Shown: piece after piece, positions 9,644-39,592 of the stretch | Numbering within the stretch: position 1 is the stretch's first letter | Layout: each line of letters opens with the position of its first letter | IMG/VR virus record: IMGVR_UViG_3300046167_000571 | Coordinates: 1 to 44,469 of that record | DNA from: a virus | Length of the DNA stretch: 44,469 nt | Strand: one strand, 5' to 3' | The notes under the pieces: model-generated | Database searches by the model: none | Told to the model about the DNA's origin: nothing | Seen by the model: the letters and a program-made list of their open reading frames with translations, nothing else | Made by a program: the position numbers and the translations under genes

Positions 9644-10441
9644 ATGAGTGAAGTAATAGCAGGAAATAATTATACACTAACTTACGATAGAGGGGTTACG
9701 GGATTCCCGTCATTCTATTCGTACTACCCTGACTTTATGATGGGTATGAATAACTATTTTTATACTTGGAAGGGAGGCAACCTATACAGGCATAATACAA
9801 ACGAGACTCGAAATAATTACTATGGCGTTCAGTATAACTCTGAAGTAATATCAGTATTCAATGACTCTCCCTTAGAGAATAAGCTGTTCAAGACTATCGA
9901 GCTTGGAGGAGATGACCGTTGGGATGTCTCATTGATTAGCGACCAACAGACCACAGGGTTTATTGATGAGGATTGGTTTGAAAAGAAGGAGGGTACATTC
10001 TTTGCTTTCGTTAGAAATAGTGGAACGGTTCCTGCATCATTAGACCAATACGCATTACGTTCAGTAAATGGCTTAGGTACAAGCTCTAATATCACTACGG
10101 TAACTACAGTATCTACGATTGACTTTAATGTCAATACTCCGGTTGGCAGTATTATAAGTATTGGGGACTATGTATATTGGGGCAGTAGTGCACCTACTTT
10201 GTTTGGTGTAGTCACAGCAATAAACCAAAACTTACCACAGGGTATTAACAATGTGGTTGTCAACAACTCAACAGGTACAGTACCTGTTGGAACAACAGAG
10301 TATATACTATACATAAAGAACTCAGTAGCTGAATCTCAGGGTATCTTGGGTCACTACGGACAGTTTACTCTGACAAACGACAACACATCTAAGGTAGAAC
10401 TATACGCAGTATTATCTGAGGTTATGAAATCATTCCCATAA
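9644..10441 (+). CDS. Predicted virion structural protein
   Basis: This 265-residue protein opens with MSEVIAGNNYTLTYDRGVTG. It is rich in Tyr and aromatics (FPSFYSYYPDFMMGMNNYFY) and has an NKLFKTIELGGDD segment that I associate with structural proteins encoded after the tail in Bacteroidota podophages. It starts 12 bases after the previous stop. The C-terminal half (STGTVPVGTTEYILYIKNS) looks beta-sandwich-like. The exact virion position is unknown. Confidence 0.55.
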   Translation: MSEVIAGNNYTLTYDRGVTGFPSFYSYYPDFMMGMNNYFYTWKGGNLYRHNTNETRNNYYGVQYNSEVISVFNDSPLENKLFKTIELGGDDRWDVSLISDQQTTGFIDEDWFEKKEGTFFAFVRNSGTVPASLDQYALRSVNGLGTSSNITTVTTVSTIDFNVNTPVGSIISIGDYVYWGSSAPTLFGVVTAINQNLPQGINNVVVNNSTGTVPVGTTEYILYIKNSVAESQGILGHYGQFTLTNDNTSKVELYAVLSEVMKSFP

Positions 10442-19600: not shown

Positions 19601-22600
19601 GATACTAAAGAGTAATCCAATATATAAGATTCAGCCTGAGCAGGTTCAATTAGAGCTACAGGTAGCTTTAGATAGAGTGCTTGGTATTAAGAAAGGTCCT
19701 AACGTATCAAGGCAGATTGCAGATATAAGGAATACACTAAAACAAAGGAAGATTGGAGCAGATACAATTACTGATGCTCAACGTAGCTTGAGGATGTTCA
19801 TAAGAAAGGTAATGCCTAAGTCTAAGAACTACTCTAATACTGCACTAAACAAATTAATAAAGGCAGTAAACAATACCACACCCAAGAACTTTGATGGGCA
19901 GGTTCAAGTTGTTCTAAACCAATTAGAAAAGCAACGTCAGGTTCTAAAGAATGAGGTTATTGATAAGATTATCAAGATTGCAAGAGATAAATCTAAGACT
20001 GCAAGGACAAGTGCCAACAGGAAAAGGTCCAAAGGATTAGATGCCATTGGTCAGTCATACTTTAAGGAAGCAAAAAGGGTATTGGACTTAGTTAAGAATC
20101 AAGACTTCGAGGGTCTTGCAGCAATGCAAGCTGAGATTAATGAAGAACTTATAACAGCAGCGTTAGATAATATAGAAGAAGGAAAAACTCTAACAGCAAA
20201 AGAAAGAGCATTAATAGATAAGCAAATTGCTCTTGATACATTTGCAGATGTGATGACGATGAGCCTTGAAGAAGTAAATCAATTGTTTGAAGAAGTTAAA
20301 ACAATCAGAGCCGAGTCTATAGCAAGGCTTAATAATAGAAGAGAGGCAAGAAGGATAGCTGTAAACAACATAAAGGAGAAGTTTAATGAGCAGATATCTG
20401 AGGACTTTGAAGAGTTGTATAACGAAGAAGGAAAGCAGTTAGGAAAAAATATATTAAGAAATAAAAAAGAAGGAATATATAAGTCATTTCAAGCAAAGGG
20501 TATATGGAATAAGGTAATTGCATTTACAGATGAGTTTAGAGAAAATGGTAAGTTTAGAAAAAGTGGTAAGTACGATGCGAATGGAATAATAAAGTTCTTT
20601 AGAGGAAGCCTTCAGCACTTAGGTACTACTACTAATATATTAGATAGGGGTAAGGAAGGAATGTTTACTAAAATATTCTACAACCAACTAAATGATATGG
20701 ATGAAAAGAATCTTGCAGGAGTATTTGAGCAGTTAGATGTTATGGATTCTATTTCCAATTCAGAAGCAGGAAAGGTTTGGGGAAAATGGAAGTATACATT
20801 AGGAACAGATGTCTTAATACTTGATGGCATCAAAGAGTCTAAAACAGGTAAAACGTATAGAGAGGGATTGAATAGAGACCAAGCGATGAGATTGTATGCA
20901 TTGTCCTTAAATCCTGTACAAAGAGAGAAACTTCAAAAACAAGGGTTTACTGAAGAGAAAATGAAGCTCATTGAGGATTTCATAAAACCTGAAGGGATTG
21001 GTATAGCTAATCAGATAGTAGACTACTTTAGTAATAAATACTTTAATGAAGTAAATAATATTTATGTACAGGCTAATGATGTTAACTTAGGCTATGTAGA
21101 AAACTACTTCCCTACAAGGACTATATCTGCACAAAAAAAGGCAGCAGATATGATTAGTGGAGACTTCAGTAAGGTATTCACCGCAGATACGTCTCCTGCA
21201 TTGCAAGAGAGAACTGATACAAAGGGAGACGTAGAGATAGGTATGTCGTTTACTGATGTAGTTGAACAGCATATAAAGGATATGGAACGATACAAGGCAT
21301 ATGCCCTTGGTGTTAAGCAGATGAACGAGGTTTATAAATCACCTGACATTCAAACTCTTTTGGTAGAGACAGGATTATTCTCGATATTTAGTCAGAACTT
21401 AAACTATGCAATAAATCCTGATGCCGGACCAAAGACTACGAGTGGTGTTCTCAGTTGGATTCAACGTAAGTTTACAGGGTTTGCGTTAGCATTTAAACCA
21501 ATACAGGTTTTAAAGCAGTCAACATCTTTTGTTCAGGCATACGAAGACTATTCATTTGTAAAGGGCAAGCCAACACCGGGATTGGATATGGTAATGTTTG
21601 CATTGGATTATGCTAAGGTATTAGCTAACCTACCTAAGAATATAAAAGAGTCTAAAGAAATATCAGCCACATTTAAAAATCGTATGGAGAGGGGTATGGA
21701 AGGAGATGTGTTTGGATTAGAATCAGGCGGTAGAACATATAAAAAGATAGGCTCTCAGCAAGGTAGAAGGGGAGCAGCAGTAAGAGGGTTTAAAAAAGCA
21801 GCAGGTATATTTACTGTTATGGGAGATATATTAGGAGTGCTTGGGTACAAGGCAGTTTACAATAGGAATATTGCAAATGGTATGAGTAAAGCGGAAGCCC
21901 TATCTGCATTTAATAACTATAACGCAACGCAACAGACAAGGAGAAGTACAGAGAAGATTCCTTTACAACAAGACAATAATTTCGCATCTAAGTATTTCAC
22001 TATGTTTGGTAGCACATTATTTCTTCAGATGAATAAGACGTTTCAAAGTGCGAATAATATAGTTAAAAACTTTAAGCCAACAAAGGGTGAGTTCGGTAGC
22101 CTAAAGGACTACAGAGCATTGGCACTAAACGTATCTGTAGCTAACGCATTATTTACAGCAGCAGCTTACTCAGGGGTATTGCTCAAGGGAGATGACGAAG
22201 ATAAGGATAGAGCTTGGCAGGCTATTAAAGATGCAGCCTTGGGTCTTAATATACTATACCAAATCCCATTAGCAGGAACAGCTATTGAGGAAGCAGTAAG
22301 TAAGGCAAGGGGCAAACGTGCATTCACGAGCGAGGGTGTTAATCCATTCACGAGCGTGTCAAGAAAGGTACAGAAGTCCTACAAACTATTAAAAGATGAT
22401 GAGGTTATAAAGGCTGTTAAGCCTATAATAGAACTATCTATTGGAGCACAGTTTGATTCTCCCATTGGTATATATAATCTTATCGGTGGAAGCGGTGAGG
22501 ACGAAGACTTCTATGATGCACTTGGTATAACACCATCATACAGACCGGGTTACGGAAAGAGAAAATCAAAGAAGAAGTCAAGCAAGAGTCAGTCTAAACT

Positions 22601-22664
22601 AAAAAAATCAGAGGTAAAAGAATTTTTCCCTGACTTATATAAAGAGCTATACGAAAACGATTAG
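13650..22664 (+). CDS. Giant 3004-aa internal virion / polyvalent protein with HExxH zincin motif
   Basis: The N-terminus has two tandem 30-residue repeats (about 3-29 and 33-59, consensus LYsLAQNEGYkKpIEDFK), then short repeats YVSPEEFD/YVSPEKFD and two AQDDFVR..D..GGFK units. A Gly/Ala-rich hydrophobic segment lies at about 595-650. A GNAT-like patch (NKGQGYGKDIMLEAL) lies near 1105. A zinc-protease signature HEMGHIWTDYL starts at H1742, with a later MAILIGNKGETIADS helix. Helical regions and hydrophobic stretches (about 2610 and 2830) follow, with a Lys/Ser-rich end. This matches the style of large polyvalent or ejection proteins carried in virions that enter with the DNA. Whether the zincin is active is unknown. 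Confidence 0.72.
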   Translation: MNEEALQQLYSLAQNEGYKKSIEDFKILMSSNEGALSNMYNVAQNEGYNKPIEDFKVLVGFGGTSTQETDPPVKKKGGMVSSSADGSSESQEVSYVSPEEFDKKTLYGESVDNATYVSPEKFDATSRGSAQDDFVRTIDANGGFKSREEVAQDDFVRAVDTDGGFKPREELKFLTGEEADKRLDETLATAEWNQPKEAKEEIKYDPITKEQAAAADVATFPEYSQFEQADVTRLDMPIGEAQAEQVKETIDAIKESQVPTGEESVFILEQERLKSEKEFREREELKRKKEQNLYSNAELEAIKFFKERGRDYEKDKALYDEYNEVRDALIFLEDEKKYQEKDLTPEQRAEFGSAFYYNGVLRTDIVSLKRELNKRRDELASAYLDDEAQQVREDFDQSVMVANKERIDNAVLVNNQAVANINKFNDKSIQKYGVSAEKLNTLKPQTIQEANDINLFIDDYNKAKLESQLAANQYEDASLYLETQFDKDNTLEFVDNFSAIKSQAKEGLSRGNAGDIILQYSMGITPDNEASTKEAAEKIVAALMQKPENKSRVMSRWEKANGFSEGFDVIADDPIEWAVSLAASSMSQMLPYGSKIVAATTATGAGAGAAAAGLAGAGAGAVYGLRAGMATTMFAMEYTNEVMDAISHFGYDISDPDSVAEALQDNEVWARGRERGLKRGIPIAIVDYLTASLAGKVIKVGSVASKAKRIGAMTAERLLVDPLGEASGEAIAQVTVGDELDFKEIVAEAGGGLGNNTSNMAINLARETKSKNRVDLANKFTDINFISKEISSDKQISDWSNNMERLGKITPEVNQRIQKNVGLRRDAKDLQDAAPIERIIYSGKNRAVRARIMTLLAAKEELSSTQNRRSVFGEKIREIDAELASTVETGNLLPQEEQVVLAGQGVLSTTEQASATDVREALPEYRIKKGIRGKMVPVSKEEFLKRIDESSADELQKINATVTNDAEVVGILEEKLKEVKEDAIQEPSTETVDAQEPAESRPTMGETVPGKVTVTEPTEVEEKVDAALGQVKELLSTQEGAKGMYKSAYNVPVMKDGNTITMPNGTSSFEIKNENANIIGRVKGVDFGKSPMSEKRGEVFILESKNKGQGYGKDIMLEALYLMRMNDVELVKFTQPSKEGSPFNDALERQGYITKVRTLEGSPTTEYKINNKVVDEKFQEKTKLSEAEVEEEVTTEQEVEADEQEVADLRALISEPTPKVDFRLKSKEDIDTEVGPSADLTQDITRQINELPSGNVATKIEIEEGVDIDVDELNNRTDTPIKRVSLEIINGIPTIFTISDQLTTGDIVNPKTGNFIINLKGGLGFTGTEGNENAAWANTSEAEARDLLNKAEKVYQDNVDLFNKFWEDNPEYNGLVPMNVVKMGEGSLLSNEATFRVLSDNMSIVPDENKINAINILRDTINIDTKNKKETISEGGLTKNTSKAYQKAIDANDKIINMLEGMESIESLITEDKIKQLSLPQRRILLEKIAYGKANRAGEKVSPGKPKEGSVADALIKGMPIESKELFHIGTITDLITDNQMANIPQRSIVAIQGVDVLNPDVIETNHPNYPFGVKGKSIGILEKSAPIQDVYPTAFNNAIIGLTKAEAKKKTFTEKQVEESQKRKDESERLKPGQLKPSSLGTILTETIGVQNGLPGLEFIGAISEGNISNINKLISFINTAFPSVNISTDPNTFNNVLQSDGVKVYLKGNEIVYGVTVDGDIYINPDVHNSESAMFNTAIHEMGHIWTDYLRTNKKGREIYNKGAELVKQTDTFKQQLALFNGDVDKATNEAMAILIGNKGETIADSALKSKFTEWLLGVWKYIKSQFKMSKNLSAEEIQNLTLDEFLGSALADIFSGKEIKISDAQMKKLKNPDAAFSKNISMQSIIEIGRNNALSNESIKVVLKERGFKDSDINEALKVDIDLFTAMPKEFGNVEGGVEVGLKLFNETTEKTNKFSTEGPRGGVGTTRTKSFAEIREKAQEILKSNPIYKIQPEQVQLELQVALDRVLGIKKGPNVSRQIADIRNTLKQRKIGADTITDAQRSLRMFIRKVMPKSKNYSNTALNKLIKAVNNTTPKNFDGQVQVVLNQLEKQRQVLKNEVIDKIIKIARDKSKTARTSANRKRSKGLDAIGQSYFKEAKRVLDLVKNQDFEGLAAMQAEINEELITAALDNIEEGKTLTAKERALIDKQIALDTFADVMTMSLEEVNQLFEEVKTIRAESIARLNNRREARRIAVNNIKEKFNEQISEDFEELYNEEGKQLGKNILRNKKEGIYKSFQAKGIWNKVIAFTDEFRENGKFRKSGKYDANGIIKFFRGSLQHLGTTTNILDRGKEGMFTKIFYNQLNDMDEKNLAGVFEQLDVMDSISNSEAGKVWGKWKYTLGTDVLILDGIKESKTGKTYREGLNRDQAMRLYALSLNPVQREKLQKQGFTEEKMKLIEDFIKPEGIGIANQIVDYFSNKYFNEVNNIYVQANDVNLGYVENYFPTRTISAQKKAADMISGDFSKVFTADTSPALQERTDTKGDVEIGMSFTDVVEQHIKDMERYKAYALGVKQMNEVYKSPDIQTLLVETGLFSIFSQNLNYAINPDAGPKTTSGVLSWIQRKFTGFALAFKPIQVLKQSTSFVQAYEDYSFVKGKPTPGLDMVMFALDYAKVLANLPKNIKESKEISATFKNRMERGMEGDVFGLESGGRTYKKIGSQQGRRGAAVRGFKKAAGIFTVMGDILGVLGYKAVYNRNIANGMSKAEALSAFNNYNATQQTRRSTEKIPLQQDNNFASKYFTMFGSTLFLQMNKTFQSANNIVKNFKPTKGEFGSLKDYRALALNVSVANALFTAAAYSGVLLKGDDEDKDRAWQAIKDAALGLNILYQIPLAGTAIEEAVSKARGKRAFTSEGVNPFTSVSRKVQKSYKLLKDDEVIKAVKPIIELSIGAQFDSPIGIYNLIGGSGEDEDFYDALGITPSYRPGYGKRKSKKKSSKSQSKLKKSEVKEFFPDLYKELYEND

Positions 22665-26382: not shown

Positions 26383-28458
26383 CTAAAAGTTTATGGTACT
26401 CACTCGTTTTATTTGCATCCACTTACCTGATGAAGTACGACCTATCTTTGGCGATTCTCCTGTGAGATATATGCTATACTCTACAAGCCATCTATTAAAT
26501 GCAATTGCACTTAGGTTCTGCTGTTCGGGGTAGTCTCTCTTAAACTCGTTATAGAGATTGATTGTCTCAAGCCTTATGCCTGTCTCTAATGAATCAGGTT
26601 TTTCAGAGCCTTGGATTAATCCACACCACTCAATAAACTCGTGATGTGTCTTTTGACCTAAGTCCTTAACCTTTTTATTAGCTGACTCACTCTCAATTAA
26701 ACCTGTGCTTAGGTATCCTTGCAGACAGAATATCATATAGTTATCAAACAGACACCACTCATCATCATCCCACTCGGAAAAGAAATGTTTTCCAAACTCA
26801 TCAAGAGGAGTGTAGTTCTTATTGTATGCAGAGTGTAACTCTACTTCCCACTTGCGTCTTGCAAATGAATTACCCGAACCTCTGATTGCGTAGTTAGTTG
26901 TTATCCCAATCTTAGGAGACTTTGAGAATGGTATCTTGATTGCATCCTTATTCTTCTTCTCTAATGTCATACCCTCGGTTACTACACTAAACAGTCTCTC
27001 AAAATCAAAGTTCTTCTTGACATCATCAAAGCATAGTATCTGTGTATCTGCTGACACTAATTGGTATGGAAATGATTTCTCAAATGCAAACTGCTTTCCA
27101 TCAATCACTACGAGTTTCTTCATTTGGGATAGTGCGTTCATAAACAATCCCTTTCCTGTACCTCCTTCGGGAGTCTCCTTCATTACCTCGTCATTAAGTA
27201 TAACAGCAGGGCAGTAGCTAAGGTTCTTATGTCCGTGCATCATAAAGCCAATCGTGGATTCCATAGTCTGAACCCTTTGCTTGTCATCGTTAGATATACG
27301 AGATATAAATACCTTGTAGTCTGAACCCTCTGCATCACACATCGTGAACTTCCTATCTATTACGTGGTCTTTCCAAACATATCCACCCAAGTCAAGATAG
27401 TCAATTGGCTCAATGCCATCCTTAGTAATCTTTACTGCACAGTTATTATAATATATAAACGACGTATCCTTAGAGTCCTCAATGAAGTAAATGTCTATGG
27501 TTGATAGCAAGGTAAGGAACTCCTCTCTAAAGTACCTTACACAGTCTGCAAAGTAGTTGTATATCGAAAGGTCATCTAACTCTATGAGGTAGTTTAAGAC
27601 GTAGTCCTTAATCTCTTTCTCTGATGTGTGGTCAATTAGATTGTTTGTAACCTTTACAAACACATAGTTCTTGCTGCCTTCGGGGCAGTATTTGTAGAAG
27701 CCATTGTCCTCAAGGAATTTCTTAAAGCTAAAGTGTACTAATTTTATAACACCCTTCTCGTTCTTTTCCCAAAAGGTTTGCTGTGCATTCTCCTTCTCAA
27801 TTATATTTATTACAGATTCAATACTATCGCCATCAATCCCTGCATCCTCTAACTGAAGGCGAATCTCCTTTTTTGATACACCCCTCATCATCTTAGACTT
27901 GATGGCATTTACCTTGTCCTCATCCTCGTAATACTTTGTTCCAAAGTTTGCAGTCTGAGAGTATGCTGAGTCTATAGTCCTCTCAATCTCTGCCTTGGAG
28001 AAGTCATTCGCTGCATCCTCGTATTGGTTTAGTACATACCCTGCAAGTGATTTGTTTATACCATAGTCATTGAACGCAGCAGCAAGTACATATGCGTGTT
28101 GGTTTCTCTGTCCATCATCCATTGGGAACTTCTTTGTCCACCACTTTACTAATATATCTACAATCTTATTCTCATCTGTGATTGGTATCGTTGGCGTATC
28201 TCTATTCTTTACTACCTCATTGTACTCAGGCTCTGCTATCGTATCCCATAGAGATGACTTATCGTTGATGTGAATCAATGGGTCATAAGACTCGTAGCAT
28301 ACACGAGATATATTCTTTGATGTCTTGTCAAAGTATTTACTATCAAAGTATTTCTCAAGTGAGTTGAAATAGTTTACGTGATTGTTTATATCCGCAGGTA
28401 TCTTTATCAAAGCCTTTAGACCATTACCCTGATGGAGATATGAATACTGAGTATACAT
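26383..28458 (-). CDS. Primase-helicase, main body (PriCT and SF3/D5-like helicase)
   Basis: The 691-residue frame opens with residues read out of frame, then enters GNGLKALIKIPADI, the continuation of a BT4734/VirE_N domain that begins in the upstream ORF (28424-28804). A PriCT-like helical region (DILVKWWTKKFPMDDGQRNQ) lies at about 105-190. The ATPase has Walker A GGTGKGLF (about 430), Walker B ILCFDDVKK, a sensor-type KIGITTNY and an arginine-finger-like ARRKWEVEL, as in SF3/D5-type helicases. It is the likely replicative helicase-primase. The restored fusion is about 806 residues. Confidence 0.78.
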   Translation of the reverse strand: MYTQYSYLHQGNGLKALIKIPADINNHVNYFNSLEKYFDSKYFDKTSKNISRVCYESYDPLIHINDKSSLWDTIAEPEYNEVVKNRDTPTIPITDENKIVDILVKWWTKKFPMDDGQRNQHAYVLAAAFNDYGINKSLAGYVLNQYEDAANDFSKAEIERTIDSAYSQTANFGTKYYEDEDKVNAIKSKMMRGVSKKEIRLQLEDAGIDGDSIESVINIIEKENAQQTFWEKNEKGVIKLVHFSFKKFLEDNGFYKYCPEGSKNYVFVKVTNNLIDHTSEKEIKDYVLNYLIELDDLSIYNYFADCVRYFREEFLTLLSTIDIYFIEDSKDTSFIYYNNCAVKITKDGIEPIDYLDLGGYVWKDHVIDRKFTMCDAEGSDYKVFISRISNDDKQRVQTMESTIGFMMHGHKNLSYCPAVILNDEVMKETPEGGTGKGLFMNALSQMKKLVVIDGKQFAFEKSFPYQLVSADTQILCFDDVKKNFDFERLFSVVTEGMTLEKKNKDAIKIPFSKSPKIGITTNYAIRGSGNSFARRKWEVELHSAYNKNYTPLDEFGKHFFSEWDDDEWCLFDNYMIFCLQGYLSTGLIESESANKKVKDLGQKTHHEFIEWCGLIQGSEKPDSLETGIRLETINLYNEFKRDYPEQQNLSAIAFNRWLVEYSIYLTGESPKIGRTSSGKWMQIKRVSTINF

Positions 28459-32685: not shown

Positions 32686-33055
32686 ATGCTTTCTTGTGTA
32701 TATATCTCTCGATGGTCTCTAAGTTCTTTGAACGCTTGCCAAATCCCTTGCCCGATGGTCGGTATAGATAGTAGCCATTGCTAAGTATCTCAATGTAATA
32801 CTTGTCTTGGTATATGATGACATCAACTGCCTTGTCGTGTAGCTTTGATACATCGTAGAATGATGTGTCATCTATTGGCTCTATGTGTGAGCCAAACACA
32901 AACTTAGCGAAGCTATTGTCTGCCATCGCTACTTGCAATGTATCTACTAACTGCTTGTCAGCCATCTGCTGAAGAGTCCGTATCTCCTCAGCACTTCCAC
33001 CTTTCATCTTTAGGTCAAGTATCTTTTTCCATAGGGCATCCATCTTACTTTTCAT
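32678..33055 (-). CDS. Hypothetical protein
   Basis: This 125-residue protein has a helical Lys/Met-rich front (KKILDLKMKGGSAEEIRTLQ) and a beta-rich back (VIIYQDKYYIEILSNGYYLY). It may act as a small adaptor; no family recognised. It overlaps the winged-helix gene. Confidence 0.5.
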   Translation of the reverse strand: MKSKMDALWKKILDLKMKGGSAEEIRTLQQMADKQLVDTLQVAMADNSFAKFVFGSHIEPIDDTSFYDVSKLHDKAVDVIIYQDKYYIEILSNGYYLYRPSGKGFGKRSKNLETIERYIHKKAYE

Positions 33056-33076
33056 ACTTCAATAATAATACTTTTT

Positions 33077-33382
33077 TTATACATTTGCAATAATTGATGA
33101 GTGCTTTATATCATTTATCTTGGCATACCAATACCCATCCTTGAGTATCTTGTCTGCATTATGAAACCATTCATCCTGCTTGTGGAATCCCAATCCGATA
33201 CAAATCCTTGAGTACTTTAATGCTTGTGTTACATCTGCTATGCTCTCAAGTAGATGGTCTGTTCCCTCATCCGTTAACTCATACAATTCAAATGCTTGCC
33301 ATAGTTCTTTGATGGCTGATTTTGTTTTCAACTTTGCGGTTATATCAAACCACATAAAGTTATCTCTTGTCTTAACTATCAT
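33077..33382 (-). CDS. Hypothetical protein
   Basis: This 101-residue, mostly helical protein has many Trp/Phe (FMWFDITAKLKTKSAIKELW). Its start overlaps the stop of the 21-residue-repeat gene as ATGA, making it the last member of a chain of four such overlaps. No known domain. Confidence 0.5.
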   Translation of the reverse strand: MIVKTRDNFMWFDITAKLKTKSAIKELWQAFELYELTDEGTDHLLESIADVTQALKYSRICIGLGFHKQDEWFHNADKILKDGYWYAKINDIKHSSIIANV

Positions 33383-34002
33383 AATTTTATTTTAAATTCT
33401 TTTCCTAACATTTCTTTTAATTCTTCTATTGTATATTCGGGAATATCGAAACCTCGCATCACACCATCGCTATTTTTATATGTTAGCTCCTTCCCTTTCT
33501 CATCATAGGTACGCTCATCCGAATAGCCCTTGCTGCTATTATATGTTAAGACATTCCCCATCTCATCGTAGGTACGCTCTCGCCAATAGCCCTTGCTATT
33601 TTTATATGTTAGCTCATTACCATTATCATCGAAGGTACGCTCTCGCCAATAGCCCTTGCTATTTTTATATGTTAGCTCATTACCATTATCATCGTAGGTA
33701 CTCTCTTCCCAATAGTCATTGCTATCTTTATATGTTAGCTCATTCCCCATCTCATCGAAGGTACGCTCTCGCCAATAGCCATTGCTATTTTTATATGTTA
33801 GCTCATTACCATTATCATCGTAGGTACTCTCTTCCGAATAGCCCTTGCTATCTTTATATGTTAGCTCATTCCCTCTCTCATCGTAGGTACGCTCTCGCCA
33901 ATAGCCATTGCTATCATTGCTATATTTGTTGTACTTATAAGCTATATCCCCATCCTTGTGAAATAACTCTAAATCGTCTGTTGTTCCTAATATATTTTTC
34001 AT
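33379..34002 (-). CDS. Protein with about seven 21-residue YD/Rhs-like repeats
   Basis: The start is ATG 34002, fixed by an ATGA overlap with the lysozyme stop; this gives 207 residues. After a short head (KNILGTTDDLELFHKDGDIA) come about seven tandem repeats of 21 residues, consensus nSkGYWRERTYDEnGNELTYK, where YDENGN is the recognisable YD/Rhs-type turn. A C-terminal cap (FDIPEYTIEELKEMLGKEFK) follows. The 63-bp DNA repeats remain well conserved, suggesting recent expansion. Similar beta-repeat proteins occur in other phages with unknown function. Confidence 0.72.
   Translation of the reverse strand: MKNILGTTDDLELFHKDGDIAYKYNKYSNDSNGYWRERTYDERGNELTYKDSKGYSEESTYDDNGNELTYKNSNGYWRERTFDEMGNELTYKDSNDYWEESTYDDNGNELTYKNSKGYWRERTFDDNGNELTYKNSKGYWRERTYDEMGNVLTYNSSKGYSDERTYDEKGKELTYKNSDGVMRGFDIPEYTIEELKEMLGKEFKIKL
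33463..33920. repeat. 63-bp tandem coding repeats
   Basis: About seven tandem units inside the YD-repeat gene, each containing a recurring TTATATGTTAGCTC core on the plus strand. They encode the 21-residue repeats and are not spacer-type repeats. Confidence 0.85.
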
Positions 34003-34487
34003 AATTTTTCTTTTACTTTTTTCCAATATTTTTTTGTTGACCTTTTCTTGTGTCCTCTGTGTCCACCATTCCATTTACGTGCTACAATCTCGTAGAACTC
34101 TAACCTCGTTAACCCATCGCAGCACTCAACTTCCTCTGCCATTATCTCAAACATCTCTAACGACCTTACTCTGCTCCACCTATCGTTCAAGGTGTATCGC
34201 ATCTGTATGTTGTTTAGCTTGAGGATTCTGTTAACCTCACGCACCATTATAGGGCGTATCTGTAGGCATCCTACGGCATCTTCCTTACGGCAGTATGCAT
34301 TGTCATTGCCTCTGCTCTCTACTTGGATGACTGCTGCTACAAAGCTATCCCATACCACTACCTCTGCTACCTCTTCTATTGGCTCAGTCTGTATTGATGT
34401 TGGCTCCAATGATTTCAAATCATTCCCAATGGATGATAAGAGTAGTGTGCCAAATGTTGCCATTACTATTGTTGTTACTTGTTTCAT
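33999..34487 (-). CDS. Lysozyme-like / lytic transglycosylase (endolysin candidate)
   Basis: This 162-residue protein has an N-terminal hydrophobic segment (TTIVMATFGTLLLSSIG) that may be a signal-arrest or signal peptide. The catalytic region AAVIQVESRGNDNAY has a Glu in the position of lysozyme-fold transglycosylases (E-S-R), followed by GCLQIRPIMVREVNRIL (G-x-L-Q-I) and ARKWNGGHRG. It overlaps the upstream membrane-protein gene and downstream repeat gene by ATGA. It would cut peptidoglycan during lysis. Confidence 0.8.
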   Translation of the reverse strand: MKQVTTIVMATFGTLLLSSIGNDLKSLEPTSIQTEPIEEVAEVVVWDSFVAAVIQVESRGNDNAYCRKEDAVGCLQIRPIMVREVNRILKLNNIQMRYTLNDRWSRVRSLEMFEIMAEEVECCDGLTRLEFYEIVARKWNGGHRGHKKRSTKKYWKKVKEKL

Positions 34488-34669
34488 ATGCTATTTGCGA
34501 TAAAGATTGTGAATGATACACCTATCATAAATGACATCGTCATTACGTATGGTGTAGTTATAGTTAATGTACCGAATCCTATCGGCAAGAGTAGAGATAG
34601 TGCCAATACGTATGTAATCATACCGAACGCTACCCTATTCTGCTTTCTTATTTTCTTATGTCCTCTCAT
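34484..34669 (-). CDS. Small two-TM membrane protein, holin candidate
   Basis: This 61-residue protein has a basic N-terminus (MRGHKKIRKQNR) and two hydrophobic segments (about 14-34 and 40-59), directly upstream of the lysozyme and overlapping it by ATGA. Size, topology and position fit a holin. No sequence family is assigned. Confidence 0.6.
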   Translation of the reverse strand: MRGHKKIRKQNRVAFGMITYVLALSLLLPIGFGTLTITTPYVMTMSFMIGVSFTIFIANSI

Positions 34670-34953
34670 CGTGCTGCTTGTACCTTTCTTACCTTAGCCT
34701 GTTCAAGACTTTTCTTTAACTCTCTAATCTCACTACTGCTATACCTCGCAGCCTTACCTTTCTCTTTGTACTCAGTAATCTGTGGTCTTAGCTTAATGTT
34801 GAACGTACTTCTGCTGCATCCAAGGTACTCATAGCACCTCTTGATACTCCATCGTTCATCTAAACTCTCTGTCTCTGCCTCAGCAAGAAACTTGATAAGG
34901 AGATTCTTTAACTCCTCTACATCTTTTTCAATTTTATTTAATTTATTTTCCAT
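34666..34953 (-). CDS. Coiled-coil helix-turn-helix protein
   Basis: The start is placed at ATG 34953 behind an A/T leader; a longer frame from 34992 would overlap the neighbour. The 95 residues begin with a coiled coil (NKLNKIEKDVEELKNLLIKF) and continue into WSIKRCYEYLGCSRSTFNIK, a plausible MerR/excisionase-type helix-turn-helix. The end is basic. It overlaps the holin candidate by ATGA, so it may regulate the lysis block. Confidence 0.6.
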   Translation of the reverse strand: MENKLNKIEKDVEELKNLLIKFLAEAETESLDERWSIKRCYEYLGCSRSTFNIKLRPQITEYKEKGKAARYSSSEIRELKKSLEQAKVRKVQAAR

Positions 34954-34963
34954 AATTTTATTT

Positions 34964-35197
34964 TTAATCTGTTCCACAGAACTCCCAATCATCTACGTTA
35001 TCTCTAATGAAATCCTCAATATCTTTTAGTGCAATACCTTTCTCATCATAGGATAGGTCTATTGGGAAATCAATGCCATTGATAAATAATATTGTGTCAA
35101 TATTCTCCACCCAATAATCATCCTCAATCTCACGCACATCAAAGGTATGCTCTATCTGTACGCTATCTAATCTGCCGTCTGTTAATGTATACATCAT
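34964..35197 (-). CDS. Small acidic protein, unknown
   Basis: This 77-residue acidic protein (DVREIEDDYWVENIDTILFI) overlaps the next upstream gene by ATGA at 35194-35197. No known domain; its strand-rich front half might bind protein or nucleic acid. Confidence 0.5.
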   Translation of the reverse strand: MMYTLTDGRLDSVQIEHTFDVREIEDDYWVENIDTILFINGIDFPIDLSYDEKGIALKDIEDFIRDNVDDWEFCGTD

Positions 35198-35358
35198 CTC
35201 TTTACTGTTGCCTTTAATTTGTCCCTACTTATCCAAGCATATCTTGGTTTATTCTCTTGGTATACTCTGTCCTCTGCCTCCCACTTGGAGTGTGCAGATA
35301 CAACCTCAATAAACTTGGTCGCATACCTTACGTTGTACATTCTTTTAGTTTCTCTCAT
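35194..35358 (-). CDS. Small basic protein, unknown
   Basis: I prefer ATG 35358 (MRETKRMYNVRYATKFIEVV, 54 residues), which overlaps the upstream gene by 14 bases; ATG 35385 would overlap by 41. Basic and beta/alpha mixed, with a WEAEDRVYQENKP segment. No family recognised. Confidence 0.48.
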   Translation of the reverse strand: MRETKRMYNVRYATKFIEVVSAHSKWEAEDRVYQENKPRYAWISRDKLKATVKR

Positions 35359-35566
35359 TGTATCCCCTTTCATTCCCAATGTCATAAATCCTCTCTTGGA
35401 TTCTTTCTGTTATCCAATCGCTCGTTAACACCTCATCGAGTATGTCTTGTGCATCGTCATCGGATACATCCTTAAACTTGTCTTGAACATCGTCAATGTG
35501 CCATAGGTTACCTACATAATAACCTGCGTCCATAAGTACTTTTCTTGATTTAATTTTACTTTTCAT
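35345..35566 (-). CDS. Conserved small phage protein
   Basis: This 73-residue protein contains GNLWHIDDVQDKFKDVSDDD and AQDILDEVLTSDWITERIQE, resembling a widespread small phage protein of unknown role that combines a W-H-x-D-D-V front with a helical end. It lies behind the stem-loop leader at 35577-35613. Confidence 0.55.
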   Translation of the reverse strand: MKSKIKSRKVLMDAGYYVGNLWHIDDVQDKFKDVSDDDAQDILDEVLTSDWITERIQERIYDIGNERGYNERN

Positions 35567-35576
35567 AATATCTTTT

Positions 35577-35613
35577 TACCACCTCAACCTCGATACCAAA
35601 AGAGGTAACGAGG
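35577..35613 (-). promoter_or_regulatory. Stem-loop leader H0 before the 35566 gene
   Basis: Read on the minus strand: stem CCTCGTTACC with GGTATCGAGG (one mismatch), then TTGAGGTGGTA, an A-rich tract and the ATG at 35566. It belongs to the leader family described under findings. Confidence 0.62.
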
Positions 35614-35626
35614 CAAGATGGATGAT

Positions 35627-35686
35627 AAAAAATTCTACCACCTCATCCCCCCTTGAACTGAATCAAGGTGGGGCTTCGATGGGGTG
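35627..35686 (-). terminator. Long hairpin plus T-run; possible terminator or extra leader element
   Basis: On the minus strand CACCCCATC pairs with GATGAGGTG, enclosing a second pairing of CCTTG with CAAGG, then GGTGGTAGAA and six T. It can act as an intrinsic terminator for the 103-aa gene, yet it also carries the GAGGTGGTA flank of the leader family. Which function applies is unclear. Confidence 0.5.
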
Positions 35687-35697
35687 TAAGGTCTATG

Positions 35698-36009
35698 TTA
35701 AAGCATATCTGATGGTACTTTATATCCTCCCTTTCGGATTAGCTTTGCTGCCTCTATTGGTAGTTCAAATACACCATCGTAGTCTACCAATTCTTTACCT
35801 TCAAACCATAGTCCTATATGCTCTGTTCTTTCTAATTCTTCAACATCCCATTCAATCATTGATGGTACATTATCATCGTCTGTAAACAATTCCATTGTTG
35901 AGATGCTCTCTCCCAATCTTTCAACCATCGGAGACATAGATGTCTCAAGTCCCAATACGCTGCTGAATGTCAGCATTAAATTTCCTTTTTTTGTTATTGT
36001 GTATGTCAT
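35698..36009 (-). CDS. Hypothetical protein
   Basis: This 103-residue acidic protein (DDDNVPSMIEWDVEELERTE) has a strand-rich start and a helical end. Its ATG is preceded by ATAGGTAGAT, resembling the AGGTAG flank of the nearby leader elements but without a stem. No known family. Confidence 0.5.
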   Translation of the reverse strand: MTYTITKKGNLMLTFSSVLGLETSMSPMVERLGESISTMELFTDDDNVPSMIEWDVEELERTEHIGLWFEGKELVDYDGVFELPIEAAKLIRKGGYKVPSDML

Positions 36010-36011
36010 AT

Positions 36012-36347
36012 CTACCTATTTTTATCTATTCTTTTATTATAATCTTTTGTTACTTGCCTTACTTCCTCAAGTGTGCAGTCCATTTCTATGTTAGCTGAGT
36101 ACTCAATGTCATTGTCCATACAGAACTTACCTAACGTGCATCCGTGCTTTGCGTCCAATACATTTGCTTGGTTTAAGATTCGCTTTGCCTCTGTCTGATA
36201 GCCTATCCCCTTTGCCCTTTGATATGGCATCAAGAACTCACGCTTGAATGTCTTAGATTCAACTAATATGGTGCCTGCGAAATAGCTTGCACCATCTACG
36301 TCATCGTAATGCTCGAAGCATTCTACTATTATTTTATTTCTGCTCAT
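36012..36347 (-). CDS. Hypothetical protein
   Basis: The start is placed at ATG 36347 (MSRNKIIVECFEHYDDVDGA), one base past the upstream stop; a longer frame from 36476 only overlaps the membrane-protein gene and is rejected. The 111 residues show FAGTILVESKTFKREFLMPY and HGCTLGKFCMDNDIEYSANI. Function unknown. Confidence 0.52.
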   Translation of the reverse strand: MSRNKIIVECFEHYDDVDGASYFAGTILVESKTFKREFLMPYQRAKGIGYQTEAKRILNQANVLDAKHGCTLGKFCMDNDIEYSANIEMDCTLEEVRQVTKDYNKRIDKNR

Positions 36348-36348
36348 C

Positions 36349-36558
36349 TTACTTACTTTTTTGAGGTAATACAAGGTATACAATCGCTCCCAAAAGGGAT
36401 AAGACGAACAAGGTGGCGATAGTGAACGATACCATCGTAAAGATGTCGTTACTAACGTCTTCAGCCATTGATACAATCAATCTCGCTGCGTTGATGAATG
36501 CAAATAGCAATGCATTTGCTATTAAAAACTTCTCGGTAATTTTAATTAATTTTCTCAT
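36349..36558 (-). CDS. Small membrane protein
   Basis: This 69-residue protein has a basic N-terminus and two hydrophobic stretches (LIANALLFAFINAARLIV and IATLFVLSLLGAIVYLVL), so a two-TM inner-membrane protein is likely. A promoter box lies at 36591-36598. It could serve in lysis or superinfection control, but nothing in the sequence settles that. Confidence 0.55.
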   Translation of the reverse strand: MRKLIKITEKFLIANALLFAFINAARLIVSMAEDVSNDIFTMVSFTIATLFVLSLLGAIVYLVLPQKSK

Positions 36559-36590
36559 AATATTTTTTGTCTTTTTGTTATTAATTTATG

Positions 36591-36598
36591 CAAAGTTA
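36591..36598 (-). promoter_or_regulatory. Bacteroidota -7 box (TAACTTTG)
   Basis: On the minus strand TAACTTTG ends 32 nt before the ATG at 36558, in an intergenic gap. Just upstream is TTTAGGTACTA, close to the TTTAGGTAGTA flank of the leader family. Confidence 0.58.
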
Positions 36599-36628
36599 GT
36601 ACCTAAATTGTACATAACCTAATTTATT

Positions 36629-36820
36629 TTATACTGAATAATAATTATTTGTAGTTTTCAAAAAATACTTCCAATCACTTTCTGTGTTCATTTCCATATC
36701 TTGAAATTCATCCTTTGAGAATCGCAATGTGCGATACTTTGAATGGCATTTGCCATTGTCATACATTCGCAACGTGAACGTGCGTTTACTTTGATTTGAT
36801 GTTACTTTTAAATTTGTCAT
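36629..36820 (-). CDS. Small basic protein, unknown
   Basis: This 63-residue protein is basic and strand-rich (NLKVTSNQSKRTFTLRMYDN), with a later YRTLRFSKDEFQDMEM segment. It starts after the stem-loop leader at 36837-36870. No known domain. Confidence 0.5.
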   Translation of the reverse strand: MTNLKVTSNQSKRTFTLRMYDNGKCHSKYRTLRFSKDEFQDMEMNTESDWKYFLKTTNNYYSV

Positions 36821-36836
36821 AATATTTTTTGTCTTT

Positions 36837-36870
36837 TACTACCTAAATCCCTACACCAAGTGATGTAGGG
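36837..36870 (-). promoter_or_regulatory. Stem-loop leader H1 before the 36820 gene
   Basis: On the minus strand CCCTACA pairs with TGTAGGG around an eight-base loop (TCACTTGG), then ATTTAGGTAGTA and an A-rich tract to the ATG. Its upstream flank CCACAAACAATAG is shared with element H4. Confidence 0.68.
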
Positions 36871-36892
36871 CTATTGTTTGTGGTGTGGTTTG

Positions 36893-37330
36893 TTAGATAC
36901 ATTCGCCAAGTTCGTTAAATTCGTAGCTATTTGCTATGCATAGTTCTTCTAATCCTTCATCTGAGTAAACATAATCTGAATCATTGTGCAAATCTCTCAT
37001 CAATCCATCTGCATTACCATTATCTTGCATACTTAAAAGCAAAGATGCATCCCAACAAATACCTGTTAACGGACATTCATTCGCGTCCAATTCCGAAAGC
37101 AAATCTTTGTCATAATTTTTGAAAGTTATGTACTCTCCCCTGTTTGGAAACTGACTAATTGAATAGTCTACATCTCCTCCAATTTTCATCTGTAATGCAT
37201 TAATACTTTCTATTGATTCATCAACAGATGTAGCATTCAAATCGTGCCAATTTTCTCTAATCCAATCAAAACATTTTTCTTTGTTTGGATGTTCTTCAAT
37301 TCCGTAAATTTTAATTTCTAATACTCTCAT
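36893..37330 (-). CDS. Conserved phage protein, unknown
   Basis: This 145-residue protein opens MRVLEIKIYGIEEHPNKEKC, the kind of start seen in a common phage family that begins with a short beta strand and a helix ending in W. It is acidic toward the C-terminus (DLHNDSDYVYSDEGLEELC). Function not known. Confidence 0.55.
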   Translation of the reverse strand: MRVLEIKIYGIEEHPNKEKCFDWIRENWHDLNATSVDESIESINALQMKIGGDVDYSISQFPNRGEYITFKNYDKDLLSELDANECPLTGICWDASLLLSMQDNGNADGLMRDLHNDSDYVYSDEGLEELCIANSYEFNELGECI

Positions 37331-37334
37331 AATC

Positions 37335-37946
37335 TTAATGTTCTAATATCTTTACATCCTTTTTACCTTTGCCTTCAGTTCCACTACACAAACCACATTT
37401 GGCACAATTACTTATAAAACCCATTTCATTACTTGCCGGACATCCTATGGCATTTTCATTGCCTGTTTTTGTCGCTATAAAACTTCTAAAATCAATCTTG
37501 CTTGCTGCATTTGCTTCTTCTTGATTATGTGTAGATGCCATAAAGAATTTACCAAAATCATTTGCCCAATCTTTGCTCCATTGGTGAGTATATCCCGTCC
37601 AAGATTTGCTCAGAAGAGACATTGACTCGACCAATTCAATTGGCATTAGCGAAGGTTCGCCATATGTCCCAAAACGTACATAACTTTTATGTGACATATC
37701 CATTATGTCTCTATACTTTTGCTCATTTAATTCGGTTAGTGCTTCTTTTGGTATGCTTCTAAGCATAGATAAAAAACCTACATATTGATTAAATTTATGG
37801 GTGTAACATCCACCATTTCCATTTCCCATTGAAAAGGGACAGTCCAAACAATTGTCTTTATCCAATGCAAAAAATACTTTCATTCCAAACCCTTTTTGCG
37901 TGTTTGCCAATTTCCACTGCGCCATACTAAATGTATACGTTTGCAC
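37335..37946 (-). CDS. Cys-rich phage protein (possible metal or Fe-S binding), main part
   Basis: These 203 residues begin at an internal GTG; upstream codons in the same frame (KTSNKKITDGSKIVQTYTF) show the true N-terminus lies further upstream (see 37997-38047). Two Cys clusters are visible: CLDCPFSMGNGNGGCYTH near the front and CPASNEMGFISNCAKCGLC near the end. Between them lie VRFGTYGEPSLMP and SWTGYTHQW. This matches a widespread phage family of unknown function; the Cys layout and TYGEP turn suggest Fe-S or zinc binding, perhaps radical-SAM-related. The four-base gap to the next gene fits one operon. Confidence 0.65.
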   Translation of the reverse strand: MQTYTFSMAQWKLANTQKGFGMKVFFALDKDNCLDCPFSMGNGNGGCYTHKFNQYVGFLSMLRSIPKEALTELNEQKYRDIMDMSHKSYVRFGTYGEPSLMPIELVESMSLLSKSWTGYTHQWSKDWANDFGKFFMASTHNQEEANAASKIDFRSFIATKTGNENAIGCPASNEMGFISNCAKCGLCSGTEGKGKKDVKILEH

Positions 37947-37996
37947 AATTTTGCTGCCATCCGTTATTTTTTTGTTGGAAGTTTTACCTTTGTTTA

Positions 37997-38047
37997 CTAC
38001 AAAGATGTTGTTCCCTTTGTGAATACTACTTTTTTAACTTTTGTCAT
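37997..38047 (-). pseudogene. Displaced 5' end of the Cys-rich gene
   Basis: ATG 38047 follows the stem-loop leader at 38065-38101 and encodes MTKVKKVVFTKGTTSL before a TAG at 37997-37999. Moving back one base there gives VVNKGKTSNKKITDGSKIVQ, which runs straight into the Cys-rich ORF. The full gene would be 37335-38047, about 237 residues. Confidence 0.6.
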
Positions 38048-38064
38048 AATTTCTATATTTTTTT

Positions 38065-38101
38065 TACCACCTAAACCCACAAACCAATTTAGATTTGTGG
38101 G
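38065..38101 (-). promoter_or_regulatory. Stem-loop leader H2 before the 38047 start
   Basis: On the minus strand CCCACAAA pairs perfectly with TTTGTGGG around a TCTAAATTGG loop, then TTTAGGTGGTA and an A-rich tract. Its loop and upstream region closely match H3. Confidence 0.7.
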
Positions 38102-38109
38102 TATTGATT

Positions 38110-38205
38110 TTACTTTAAGTTTAACACAATTAAACGTGCAAAATTGACGATGAATATTAATACAATTACTCCCATAACTAAATATTTATTAATTTCCCAT
38201 TCCAT
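38110..38205 (-). CDS. Possible 31-aa single-TM micro-protein
   Basis: ATG 38205 opens a 31-residue frame with a charged start (MEWEINKY) and one hydrophobic segment (LVMGVIVLIFIVNFARLIVL). It overlaps the end of the 97-aa gene by 28 bases in another frame and ends just before leader H2. The composition is typical of small phage membrane peptides, but the evidence is only the TM segment and position. Confidence 0.4.
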   Translation of the reverse strand: MEWEINKYLVMGVIVLIFIVNFARLIVLNLK

Positions 38206-38471
38206 TTTTTGCCGTTCAAATACCATTGAAAATCCTTTTGGTATATGCTTACGTTTGGTATACCATTGAGTCTTTCTTTTGTGGTATTTGTTTGCCATCC
38301 ACAATTAGTTATTGATATGGTGTTTTTTGGGTCATTATACCTATAAGCTATCTCGTTTCCGTGTAACTTTAATACTGTGACATTTGGCAACACATCTACG
38401 GACATATTCCCTTTGTTGAATTTCTTTCCATTCATAAATGCATCTACTGACTGTTGTGTTATTTTTCTCAT
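38178..38471 (-). CDS. Conserved small phage protein
   Basis: This 97-residue basic protein contains VLKLHGNEIAYRYNDPKNTI and SIYQKDFQWYLNGKKWNGKL, which I associate with a small phage family of unknown role. It lies behind the stem-loop leader at 38488-38524. Confidence 0.55.
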   Translation of the reverse strand: MRKITQQSVDAFMNGKKFNKGNMSVDVLPNVTVLKLHGNEIAYRYNDPKNTISITNCGWQTNTTKERLNGIPNVSIYQKDFQWYLNGKKWNGKLINI

Positions 38472-38487
38472 AATCTTATATTTTTTT

Positions 38488-38524
38488 TACTACCTAAACC
38501 CGTACACCAATTTAGATGTACGGG
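38488..38524 (-). promoter_or_regulatory. Stem-loop leader H3 before the 38471 gene
   Basis: On the minus strand CCCGTACA pairs perfectly with TGTACGGG around a TCTAAATTGG loop, then TTTAGGTAGTA, an A-rich tract and ATG. The stem differs from H2 at paired positions while the loop is identical. Confidence 0.72.
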
Positions 38525-38552
38525 TAAGATTTTTAGTTTAAGTTTAGAACAA

Positions 38553-38852
38553 TTAAGCGTTTAAAAGACTTTCAAGGTCTATTTCATTATATATTAAATG
38601 GTATATATTTTCAAAGGCTACCTGAGACCAATTGTTAAACCTTTCACCGCTTATATCGGATGTGTCAAAGGCATCGTATTCACCTATTATTCCGCTTATT
38701 TGCTTTGCTTTGTAAGTGTAAATTACATTTTCATCGCTGTCTATCATTTCAAAAATTAGGTCATTTAGTGTATCAATGTCATTAATCTCATTGTGCAAAA
38801 TTAATTCTTTGATTTGCTCGGTGTAGTCGTTTATTAAATTTGTGTTTGTCAT
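38553..38852 (-). CDS. Conserved small acidic phage protein
   Basis: This 99-residue acidic helical protein has LIFEMIDSDENVIYTYKAKQ followed by GEYDAFDTSDISGE, a pattern seen in small phage proteins of unknown function. Its start MTNTN matches that of the next upstream gene (MTNTD), down to the nucleotides around the ATG. Confidence 0.55.
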   Translation of the reverse strand: MTNTNLINDYTEQIKELILHNEINDIDTLNDLIFEMIDSDENVIYTYKAKQISGIIGEYDAFDTSDISGERFNNWSQVAFENIYHLIYNEIDLESLLNA

Positions 38853-38853
38853 A

Positions 38854-38888
38854 TACTACCTAAAGCCCTATACCAAACGGCATAGGGC
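38854..38888 (-). promoter_or_regulatory. Stem-loop leader H4 before the 38852 gene
   Basis: On the minus strand GCCCTAT pairs with ATAGGGC around a loop containing TTTGG, then TTTAGGTAGTA runs directly into the ATG, so AGGT lies seven bases from the start codon. Confidence 0.7.
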
Positions 38889-38912
38889 TATTGTTTGTGG
38901 GTTTTTTTGATG

Positions 38913-39158
38913 TTAGTATAATTCGCTTTTTTCTATTCTCTTAACTTCATATTTTGGTAATTCATCGCAATAAGCTAAGTACTTATCGAATGAATTTTCG
39001 CATTTTTTATCCCATTTATTATAGGCTTTCTCATCACCTTCACTATCGGAAATGTTTCTTAAATTATCGAATTCATTGTACTTTTTTAGCCATACAATGG
39101 CTTTCTTGAAATTGCTTTGATTTGCTTTGTTTTTTGCTTTAAAATCTGTGTTTGTCAT
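38913..39158 (-). CDS. Small charged protein, first gene of the leftward operon
   Basis: This 81-residue protein is Lys/Asp/Asn-rich (DFKAKNKANQSNFKKAIVWL) and mostly helical. It is the promoter-proximal gene of the leftward transcript that begins at the box at 39279-39286, with leader H5 between. Function unknown. Confidence 0.5.
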   Translation of the reverse strand: MTNTDFKAKNKANQSNFKKAIVWLKKYNEFDNLRNISDSEGDEKAYNKWDKKCENSFDKYLAYCDELPKYEVKRIEKSELY

Positions 39159-39159
39159 A

Positions 39160-39198
39160 TATCGCCAAATCCTCGCACCTATTGTCTAAGGTGCGAGG
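39160..39198 (-). promoter_or_regulatory. Stem-loop leader H5 before the 39158 gene
   Basis: On the minus strand CCTCGCACCT pairs perfectly with AGGTGCGAGG over ten base pairs, then ATTTGGCGATA leads into the ATG. The flank diverges from TTTAGGTAGTA, making it the most distant family member. Confidence 0.6.
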
Positions 39199-39278
39199 TA
39201 AGTGGTTTATTTTAATACGTCAATGAACTACAGAAGGCCTTGCCAAATAATCGAGTGTGCTATTCCGTTTTGTTGATA

Positions 39279-39286
39279 CAAATATA
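39279..39286 (-). promoter_or_regulatory. Main leftward promoter -7 box (TATATTTG)
   Basis: On the minus strand TATATTTG is preceded by a TTG 21 bases upstream, close to the Bacteroidota -33 spacing. It lies 120 nt before the first leftward gene and is well placed to start the leftward operon. Confidence 0.65.
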
Positions 39287-39592
39287 CATTTACAGATTTC
39301 AATTAAACAAGTTTTTTTGCAAAATAAATTAGTTTTTTATTATAATACTTTGTAATTCATTGTCAATCAACTATTTAAAAATCAAAGTTTTTTTGTGTAT
39401 TTTTTACCTTCATTCGTTTATGCCTGCAAAATTGCGGTCATAGGTTAAGTCTTCCTTCAAGGTATGTAAGCTAAAATATATATTTTGTCTTGGGAATGTG
39501 GACGGGATACGGGATACGTGAACGTGTACGGGGAACAGGTATGCATATATACAGGGATACGGTATACGGTGTGCCCTGCGCAACAGGTATAC

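Follow-up and report, generated by a model that had tools for sequence, protein, structure and literature searches.

Hammerhead ribozymes flank single genes in phages, and it has been proposed that they process long phage RNAs to gene-length mRNAs (Perreault et al. 2011, PMC3088659). In haloviruses HF1/HF2, one such hammerhead lies 13 nucleotides (nt) upstream of an early gene (PMC3088659). In cluster K mycobacteriophages, Start-Associated Sequences (SAS) and extended SAS are found before the starts of some non-structural genes; some SAS are accompanied by inverted repeats, and their consensus varies between subclusters (PMC3203893). Here, we report an analysis of a family of hairpin elements with a conserved tail in the 44,469-base IMG/VR virus record IMGVR_UViG_3300046167_000571 (the window, analysed at its full length). 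Like phage hammerheads, the window elements occupy a slot just before early-gene start codons, but they have neither the CUGANGA/GAAA core nor a third stem; no hammerhead core (CUGANGA...GAAA with three stems) was found in the window or in the related locus L005. Like SAS, they are repeats placed just before the start codons of a subset of genes. However, SAS are a fixed 13-mer (GGGATAGGAGCCC) with sequence-conserved inverted repeats, whereas in the window elements it is the tail that is fixed, with stems free to vary. The 13-mer had seven weak matches in the window, compared to 4.75 expected by chance, and none of these was at an element.

At the level of sequence and position, our analysis shows that the elements belong to a predicted structured RNA motif of early-gene leaders, which shares its slot with hammerheads. 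The motif consists of a GC-rich stem of 9-15 base pairs (bp), variable yet consistently paired, a short loop, the tail UUU(G/A)GGURGUA (often followed by GAAA), an A/U-rich leader and an ATG. An alignment of 22 elements from other phages only (A1) was used to build a covariance model, R1, which contained no window element. With filters off and both strands of the 44 kb searched, R1 returned the following seven elements and nothing else; its expectation values (E) are rough, the calibration having been short.

Element 1, 39160..39198, minus strand: 10-bp stem CCTCGCACCT/AGGTGCGAGG, loop TAGACAAT, tail ATTTGGCGATA; before gene 39158-38913; R1 20.1 bits, E 7.9e-4.
Element 2, 38854..38889, minus strand: 11-bp stem AGCCCTATGCC/GGTATAGGGCT, tail TTTAGGTAGTA (the stem ends with the first T of this tail); precedes gene 38852-38553; R1 11.3 bits, E 0.43, the weakest by the model.
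Element 3, 38488..38525, minus strand: 11-bp stem ACCCGTACATC/GGTGTACGGGT, tail TTTAGGTAGTA; before gene 38471-38178 (phrog_554, Kyano_Gp96-like); R1 24.9 bits, E 2.5e-5.
Element 4, 38065..38102, minus strand: 11-bp stem ACCCACAAATC/GGTTTGTGGGT, tail TTTAGGTGGTA; before the ATG at 38047; R1 30.3 bits, E 4.9e-7.
Element 5, 36837..36870, minus strand: 9-bp stem CCCTACATC/GGTGTAGGG, tail TTTAGGTAGTA; before gene 36820-36629; R1 22.5 bits, E 1.3e-4.
Element 6, 35636..35684, minus strand: inner hairpin at about 35647-35673 inside an outer CACC/GGTG stem, tail ATGAGGTGGTA; forms a tandem with element 7; R1 16.7 bits, E 0.0088.
Element 7, 35577..35620, minus strand: stem CCTCGTTACC/GGTATCGAGG, paired except for a U-U mismatch, plus an outer stem formed with GGUGGUAAA; tail TTGAGGTGGTA; precedes gene 35566-35345; R1 34.4 bits, E 2.5e-8, the best by the model.

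All six minus-strand elements proposed in an earlier sequence-only reading were thus present at the positions given and recovered by R1, and the one that it had considered doubtful (35627-35686; element 6) proved to be real. The short loops that it described were also found (4-8 nt, A/U-rich), but the stems are 9-11 bp rather than 7-10 bp long, and the GG of a TTGG that it had placed within the loop is paired, closing the stem (C-G, U-G) by pairing with UC or CC. Stems had been called completely different yet paired; pairing is indeed kept, but an outer CCC/GGG is common to most of them. A tail followed by the ATG of a small gene was confirmed for most elements, at a distance of 1 nt for elements 1 and 2 and of 10-17 nt for elements 3-5 and 7. 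Elements 6 and 7 form a tandem pair ahead of a single gene. After element 4, the frame from ATG 38047 stops within 17 codons and a phrog_2554-like body open reading frame (ORF; 37946-37335) is open in another frame. The broken frame (37946-38047) represents either a frameshift or an assembly error.

Perfect stems of at least 7 bp with at least 3 G/C were found exactly five times on the minus strand of 33001-39300, always in elements, compared to a mean of 1.2 and a maximum of 3 in shuffled sequences, and RNA folding z-scores of the elements ranged from -2.3 to -7.2. The four exact copies of the tail in the record are all within elements. With up to two mismatches, occurrence of the tail TTTAGGTRGTA did not exceed chance (44 vs 35.7), and the tail pattern alone was set aside as weak evidence. 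A loop-tail pseudoknot (CUAAA/UUUAG, elements 3 and 4) was also rejected, as the other elements do not share it and the loops are A/U-rich and unconserved.

The covariation claimed in the sequence-only reading was evident in the helix. In the inner helix of A1, 95.5% of cells were paired, with 50 double changes compared to 16.2 in shuffles, and pairing fell to 41-52% when the partner was slid; the class formed by the window and L005 showed 21 double changes compared to 6.9. The (near-)invariant parts of A1 were CC(U/C)C/GGGG and the tail GGURGU. GNRA- or cUUCGg-type loops, which are typical of RNA rather than DNA selection, were present in 7 of the 22 A1 members (the loop in L061 is UUCG, though its scripted label reads GNRA). 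In addition, many motif copies contained an extra outer stem pairing with GGUGGU. It divides the copies into two subclasses: the stem was usual in L015, L021, L022, L033, L061 and L111-L142, where upstream CACC or CCACC pairs with the tail GGUGG, and in L119 the tail GGTAGT was matched by upstream ACTACC, a double change. An outer stem with GGURGU was also present in elements 6 and 7; for elements 1-5 and most L005 elements, such pairing was no better than with shuffled flanks. Class B conserves about a dozen bases adjacent to the helix (UUUUGGURGURGAAA), the window/L005 class only about seven unpaired ones.

The motif is concentrated in phages and rare in cellular genomes. It was located 0-35 nt ahead of the ATG of a small gene in about 25 viral records. 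A primase search yielded 80 loci. Outside the window, R1 had 59 matches with E<=0.1, spread over 42 loci that include sources of A1. An ATG-initiated ORF was present within 75 nt of 64 of 69 motif copies, compared to 45% of random places. The pattern GGGGNTTTGGTGGTRGAAA occurred in 32 viral stretches, 23 of them with both hairpin and ORF, compared to 1 of 30 in cellular genomes, where matches were mostly due to chance. The best cellular match was a Mucilaginibacter metagenome-assembled genome, with two copies near a recombinase-like gene. At E 1e-4, R1 matched 2 of 395 Bacteroidota genomes and, among 299 genomes from the phylum to which L160 (Vibrio) belongs, a single one. The latter, G557 (L186-L190), carries a 49-nt repeat in ten copies, with R1 scores of 28-32 bits; it may be a dispersed repeat that has nothing to do with the motif. 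Covariation of the helix and further copies in front of genes of related phages, the two points on which the sequence-only reading could have failed, were both found, and together with the scarcity of the motif in cells they support its suggestion of a phage-specific 5' leader.

Locus L005, detected with a spacing-aware pattern, codes for a primase 88% identical to that of the window and a GroEL of the same length. Most of its eleven elements immediately precede a gene, the tail merging with the ATG as TTTGGTAGTATG. In its orthologues of genes 39158-38913 (86% amino acid identity) and 38852-38553 (71%), the element was kept with a completely different stem. Elements 6/7 were found ahead of another gene in L032, and were absent before the orthologue of 35566-35345 in L090. 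These comparisons point to a turnover in which stems vary freely in sequence but remain paired, amid a mosaic gene content.

Hammerheads occupy the same slot in relatives. A scan of their loci for the core with three stems identified 55 distinct hammerheads in 30 loci (28 type I and 27 type III), 54 of which had an ORF start 11-47 nt downstream; four scrambled cores, used as a control, gave zero matches. Several hammerheads were supported by Rfam with scores below gathering, which is why a default Rfam scan missed them. Both kinds of leader were detected within one operon, ahead of consecutive genes or pairs of genes: L121 has six hammerheads alongside two copies of the motif, and L122 has three alongside four. 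One gene family is preceded by the motif in L015/L021/L022 and by a hammerhead in L038/L046/L054. A hairpin stands between the hammerhead and the ATG in L074, L094 and L095. Early-gene leader hairpins of relatives exceeded shuffling (22 vs 1.0).

Several other observations concern leaders in these loci. Hammerhead sites before relatives' early genes include L121:190-3437, L122:4637-5717, L098, L101 and L082. A type III hammerhead-like sequence was detected before an ATG in the cultured Flavobacterium phage elemoE (NC_055854; L110:21875, minus strand), which would be a practical test system. Genome-specific perfect palindromes are repeated before early genes, including GTGTCGTTAACGACAC (14 copies in L029, MW202828), AGTTCGGTCACCGAACT (six copies in L006) and GGGGAGCGCAATGCTCCCC (five copies in L044); one hairpin copy in L006 has a different stem in the same flank, that is, pairing without sequence. 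DUF805b RNA (RF02914, 39.8 bits) was found in a phage early leader at L061:4975-5007, beside a repeated hairpin.

On balance, we somewhat favour the view that the motif acts in cis as an RNA leader that sets early cistrons apart from one another, serving either for processing or as a structural insulator, and is interchangeable with self-cleavage. It would act in the polycistronic early RNA, making each gene or gene pair an independent expression unit. Either an RNase would cut at the junction of the hairpin and GGURGUA, or the hairpin would keep upstream RNA and ribosomes away from the A-rich start region, in a RiboJ-like manner. The sequence-only reading had proposed control of translation, mRNA stability or processing; presence of hammerheads in the same slot favours processing or insulation among these options. 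Several observations weigh against this interpretation. No cistron lies upstream of element 1, the one ahead of the first gene, implying that purely intercistronic cutting would be insufficient and that the leader may have a function beyond cutting alone. Four tested hammerhead-bearing records had no motif match, suggesting that motif and hammerhead are alternatives that are sometimes mixed. Many of the phages are related, so that the counts overstate independent events. Finally, strict leader hairpins or hammerheads preceded only 41 of 673 early genes of relatives; a universal leader structure was rejected on these rules, and such structures are recurrent instead.

A leader acting on translation only, with the hairpin and GGURGU recruiting or positioning the ribosome and no cutting, is rather unlikely. 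Its fixed position near the ATG would fit, and AGGTGGT, if one G-U is allowed, is complementary to the 3' end of 16S ribosomal RNA. However, in the simplest form of this idea, a Shine-Dalgarno signal, the exact complement GGTGAT would be expected, and it occurred in none of the tails (GGTGGT 33, GGTAGT 15, GGCGAT 2); A at position 4 disrupts pairing, and the L005 tail abuts the ATG with zero spacing, too close for a Shine-Dalgarno helix. Use of such signals is also rare in Bacteroidota. By tail counts and L005 spacing, a complement to the 16S 3' end (GGAGGTGAT) at Shine-Dalgarno spacing was rejected. It is still less probable that the motif represents an undescribed class of small self-cleaving ribozyme, which would release each mRNA in the manner of hammerheads by a cut close to its tail or outer stem. 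If true, phages would cut early polycistronic RNA gene by gene with either class, and alternation of the motif with hammerheads within operons and at homologous genes, as well as the bases conserved beside the helix in class B, would be explained. On the other hand, the few conserved unpaired bases of the window/L005 class, which mostly shows no outer stem beyond chance, leave very little for a catalytic core and make self-cleavage by the motif less likely, and no ribozyme family matched the motif copies in L005, L015, L021 and L022 at E 5.

Function at the DNA level, as a hairpin promoter for an N4-like RNA polymerase of the phage or as a site where recombination reshuffles gene cassettes, appears very improbable. 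The mosaic gene content around the elements, the flanks shared by copies within a genome and the Sak-like annealing and exonuclease proteins of the phage could be accommodated by such a function, but pairing is kept while stem sequence is free, stable RNA tetraloops are present, and hammerheads, which act only as RNA, occupy the same slot. With regard to a promoter, none of the RNA polymerase motifs (DxxGR, motif B and DxDGD) was found in the large ORFs and frames scanned, although a 3004-amino acid protein has no known relative; an N4- or crAss-type RNA polymerase in its ORF was only tentatively set aside, no motif having been found there. GC-rich hairpins in intergenic gaps might also suggest unusual intrinsic terminators between early genes, an explanation that we find scarcely credible. 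The gene strand has no T-run directly after the stem, and a terminator scan called none of the seven on the minus strand, in agreement with the sequence-only reading that these are not ordinary terminators. The T-run that it had noted only at the doubtful element does exist after element 6 but lies about 12 nt beyond the stem. Moreover, the gap between hairpin and ATG is too small for a promoter, and relatives L090 and L032 carry a true T-tailed hairpin before the primase region.

The setting of the elements is an early operon. Late genes occupy the plus strand, whereas the early genes run leftwards along the minus strand from about 39.2 kb, with element 1 preceding the first gene of the operon. 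In addition to helicase, Sak-like annealing protein, exonuclease and GroEL, the window contains the following features.

39279..39310, minus strand: candidate early promoter of Bacteroidota type, TTG-N21-TATATTTG, a pattern match only; upstream of the first early gene.
26383-28458: primase-like protein, PriCT_1.
4023-5021 and 9644-10441: two separate ORFs with Pfam matches to the N-terminal part and C-terminal domain of crassvirus muzzle protein; muzzle-type tail proteins, crAss virus-related.
13650-22664: the 3004-amino acid ORF, with no Pfam or PHROGs match.

The promoter pattern TTG-N21-TATATTTG had no minus-strand match between elements. In other phages, sigma-54-like promoters (TTTGGCAY-N5-TTTGCA or similar) were observed before early genes, at L061:2234, 2596 and 4011 and at L089:789. 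The closest named record is Podoviridae sp. ctfjg026 (MW202828), with 66.6% primase identity; primase matches to Flavobacterium phages elemoE/F were weaker. The window virus probably infects Bacteroidota and the motif phages are Bacteroidota podophages; the Mucilaginibacter genome with motif copies points to such hosts.

An RNA leader motif with strong covariation and no Rfam match is thus defined: the window had no match at gathering score, and a relaxed scan of L005, L015, L021 and L022 gave none at the elements. No description of the motif was found in the literature searched, in which subscription papers are thinly covered. These phages offer a natural setting where a plain hairpin and a self-cleaving ribozyme are swapped at the starts of neighbouring and homologous genes, and the role of hammerheads in phage genomes becomes testable. 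The motif bears on gene-by-gene expression of a long early transcript in phages of the phylum Bacteroidota, where Shine-Dalgarno signals play little part, and could yield natural insulator parts for these bacteria.

Other described systems share parts of this arrangement. T4-type phages are said to contain mobile regulatory cassettes composed of a promoter and a stem-loop, reportedly described by Arbiol et al. in 2010. Like these, the window elements are intergenic hairpins tied to mosaic early genes; however, the cassettes carry an early promoter, and none was seen at the window elements. In RiboJ-type synthetic insulators, a ribozyme and/or hairpin is located directly upstream of the start region. 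The window elements may work in a similar way, with a hairpin in that position, and the hammerhead plus hairpin of L074, L094 and L095 resembles the complete device, but RiboJ is engineered and the window elements correspond to its hairpin half only. The DUF805b RNA motif (RF02914) also combines a short hairpin with a conserved 3' tail, but it has the tail AGAGUAGGCA and a different loop, and had no match in the window. Phage hammerheads before genes and mycobacteriophage gene-start repeats are already known; the novelty lies in the motif, in its distribution across this phage group and in the way it and hammerheads replace each other.

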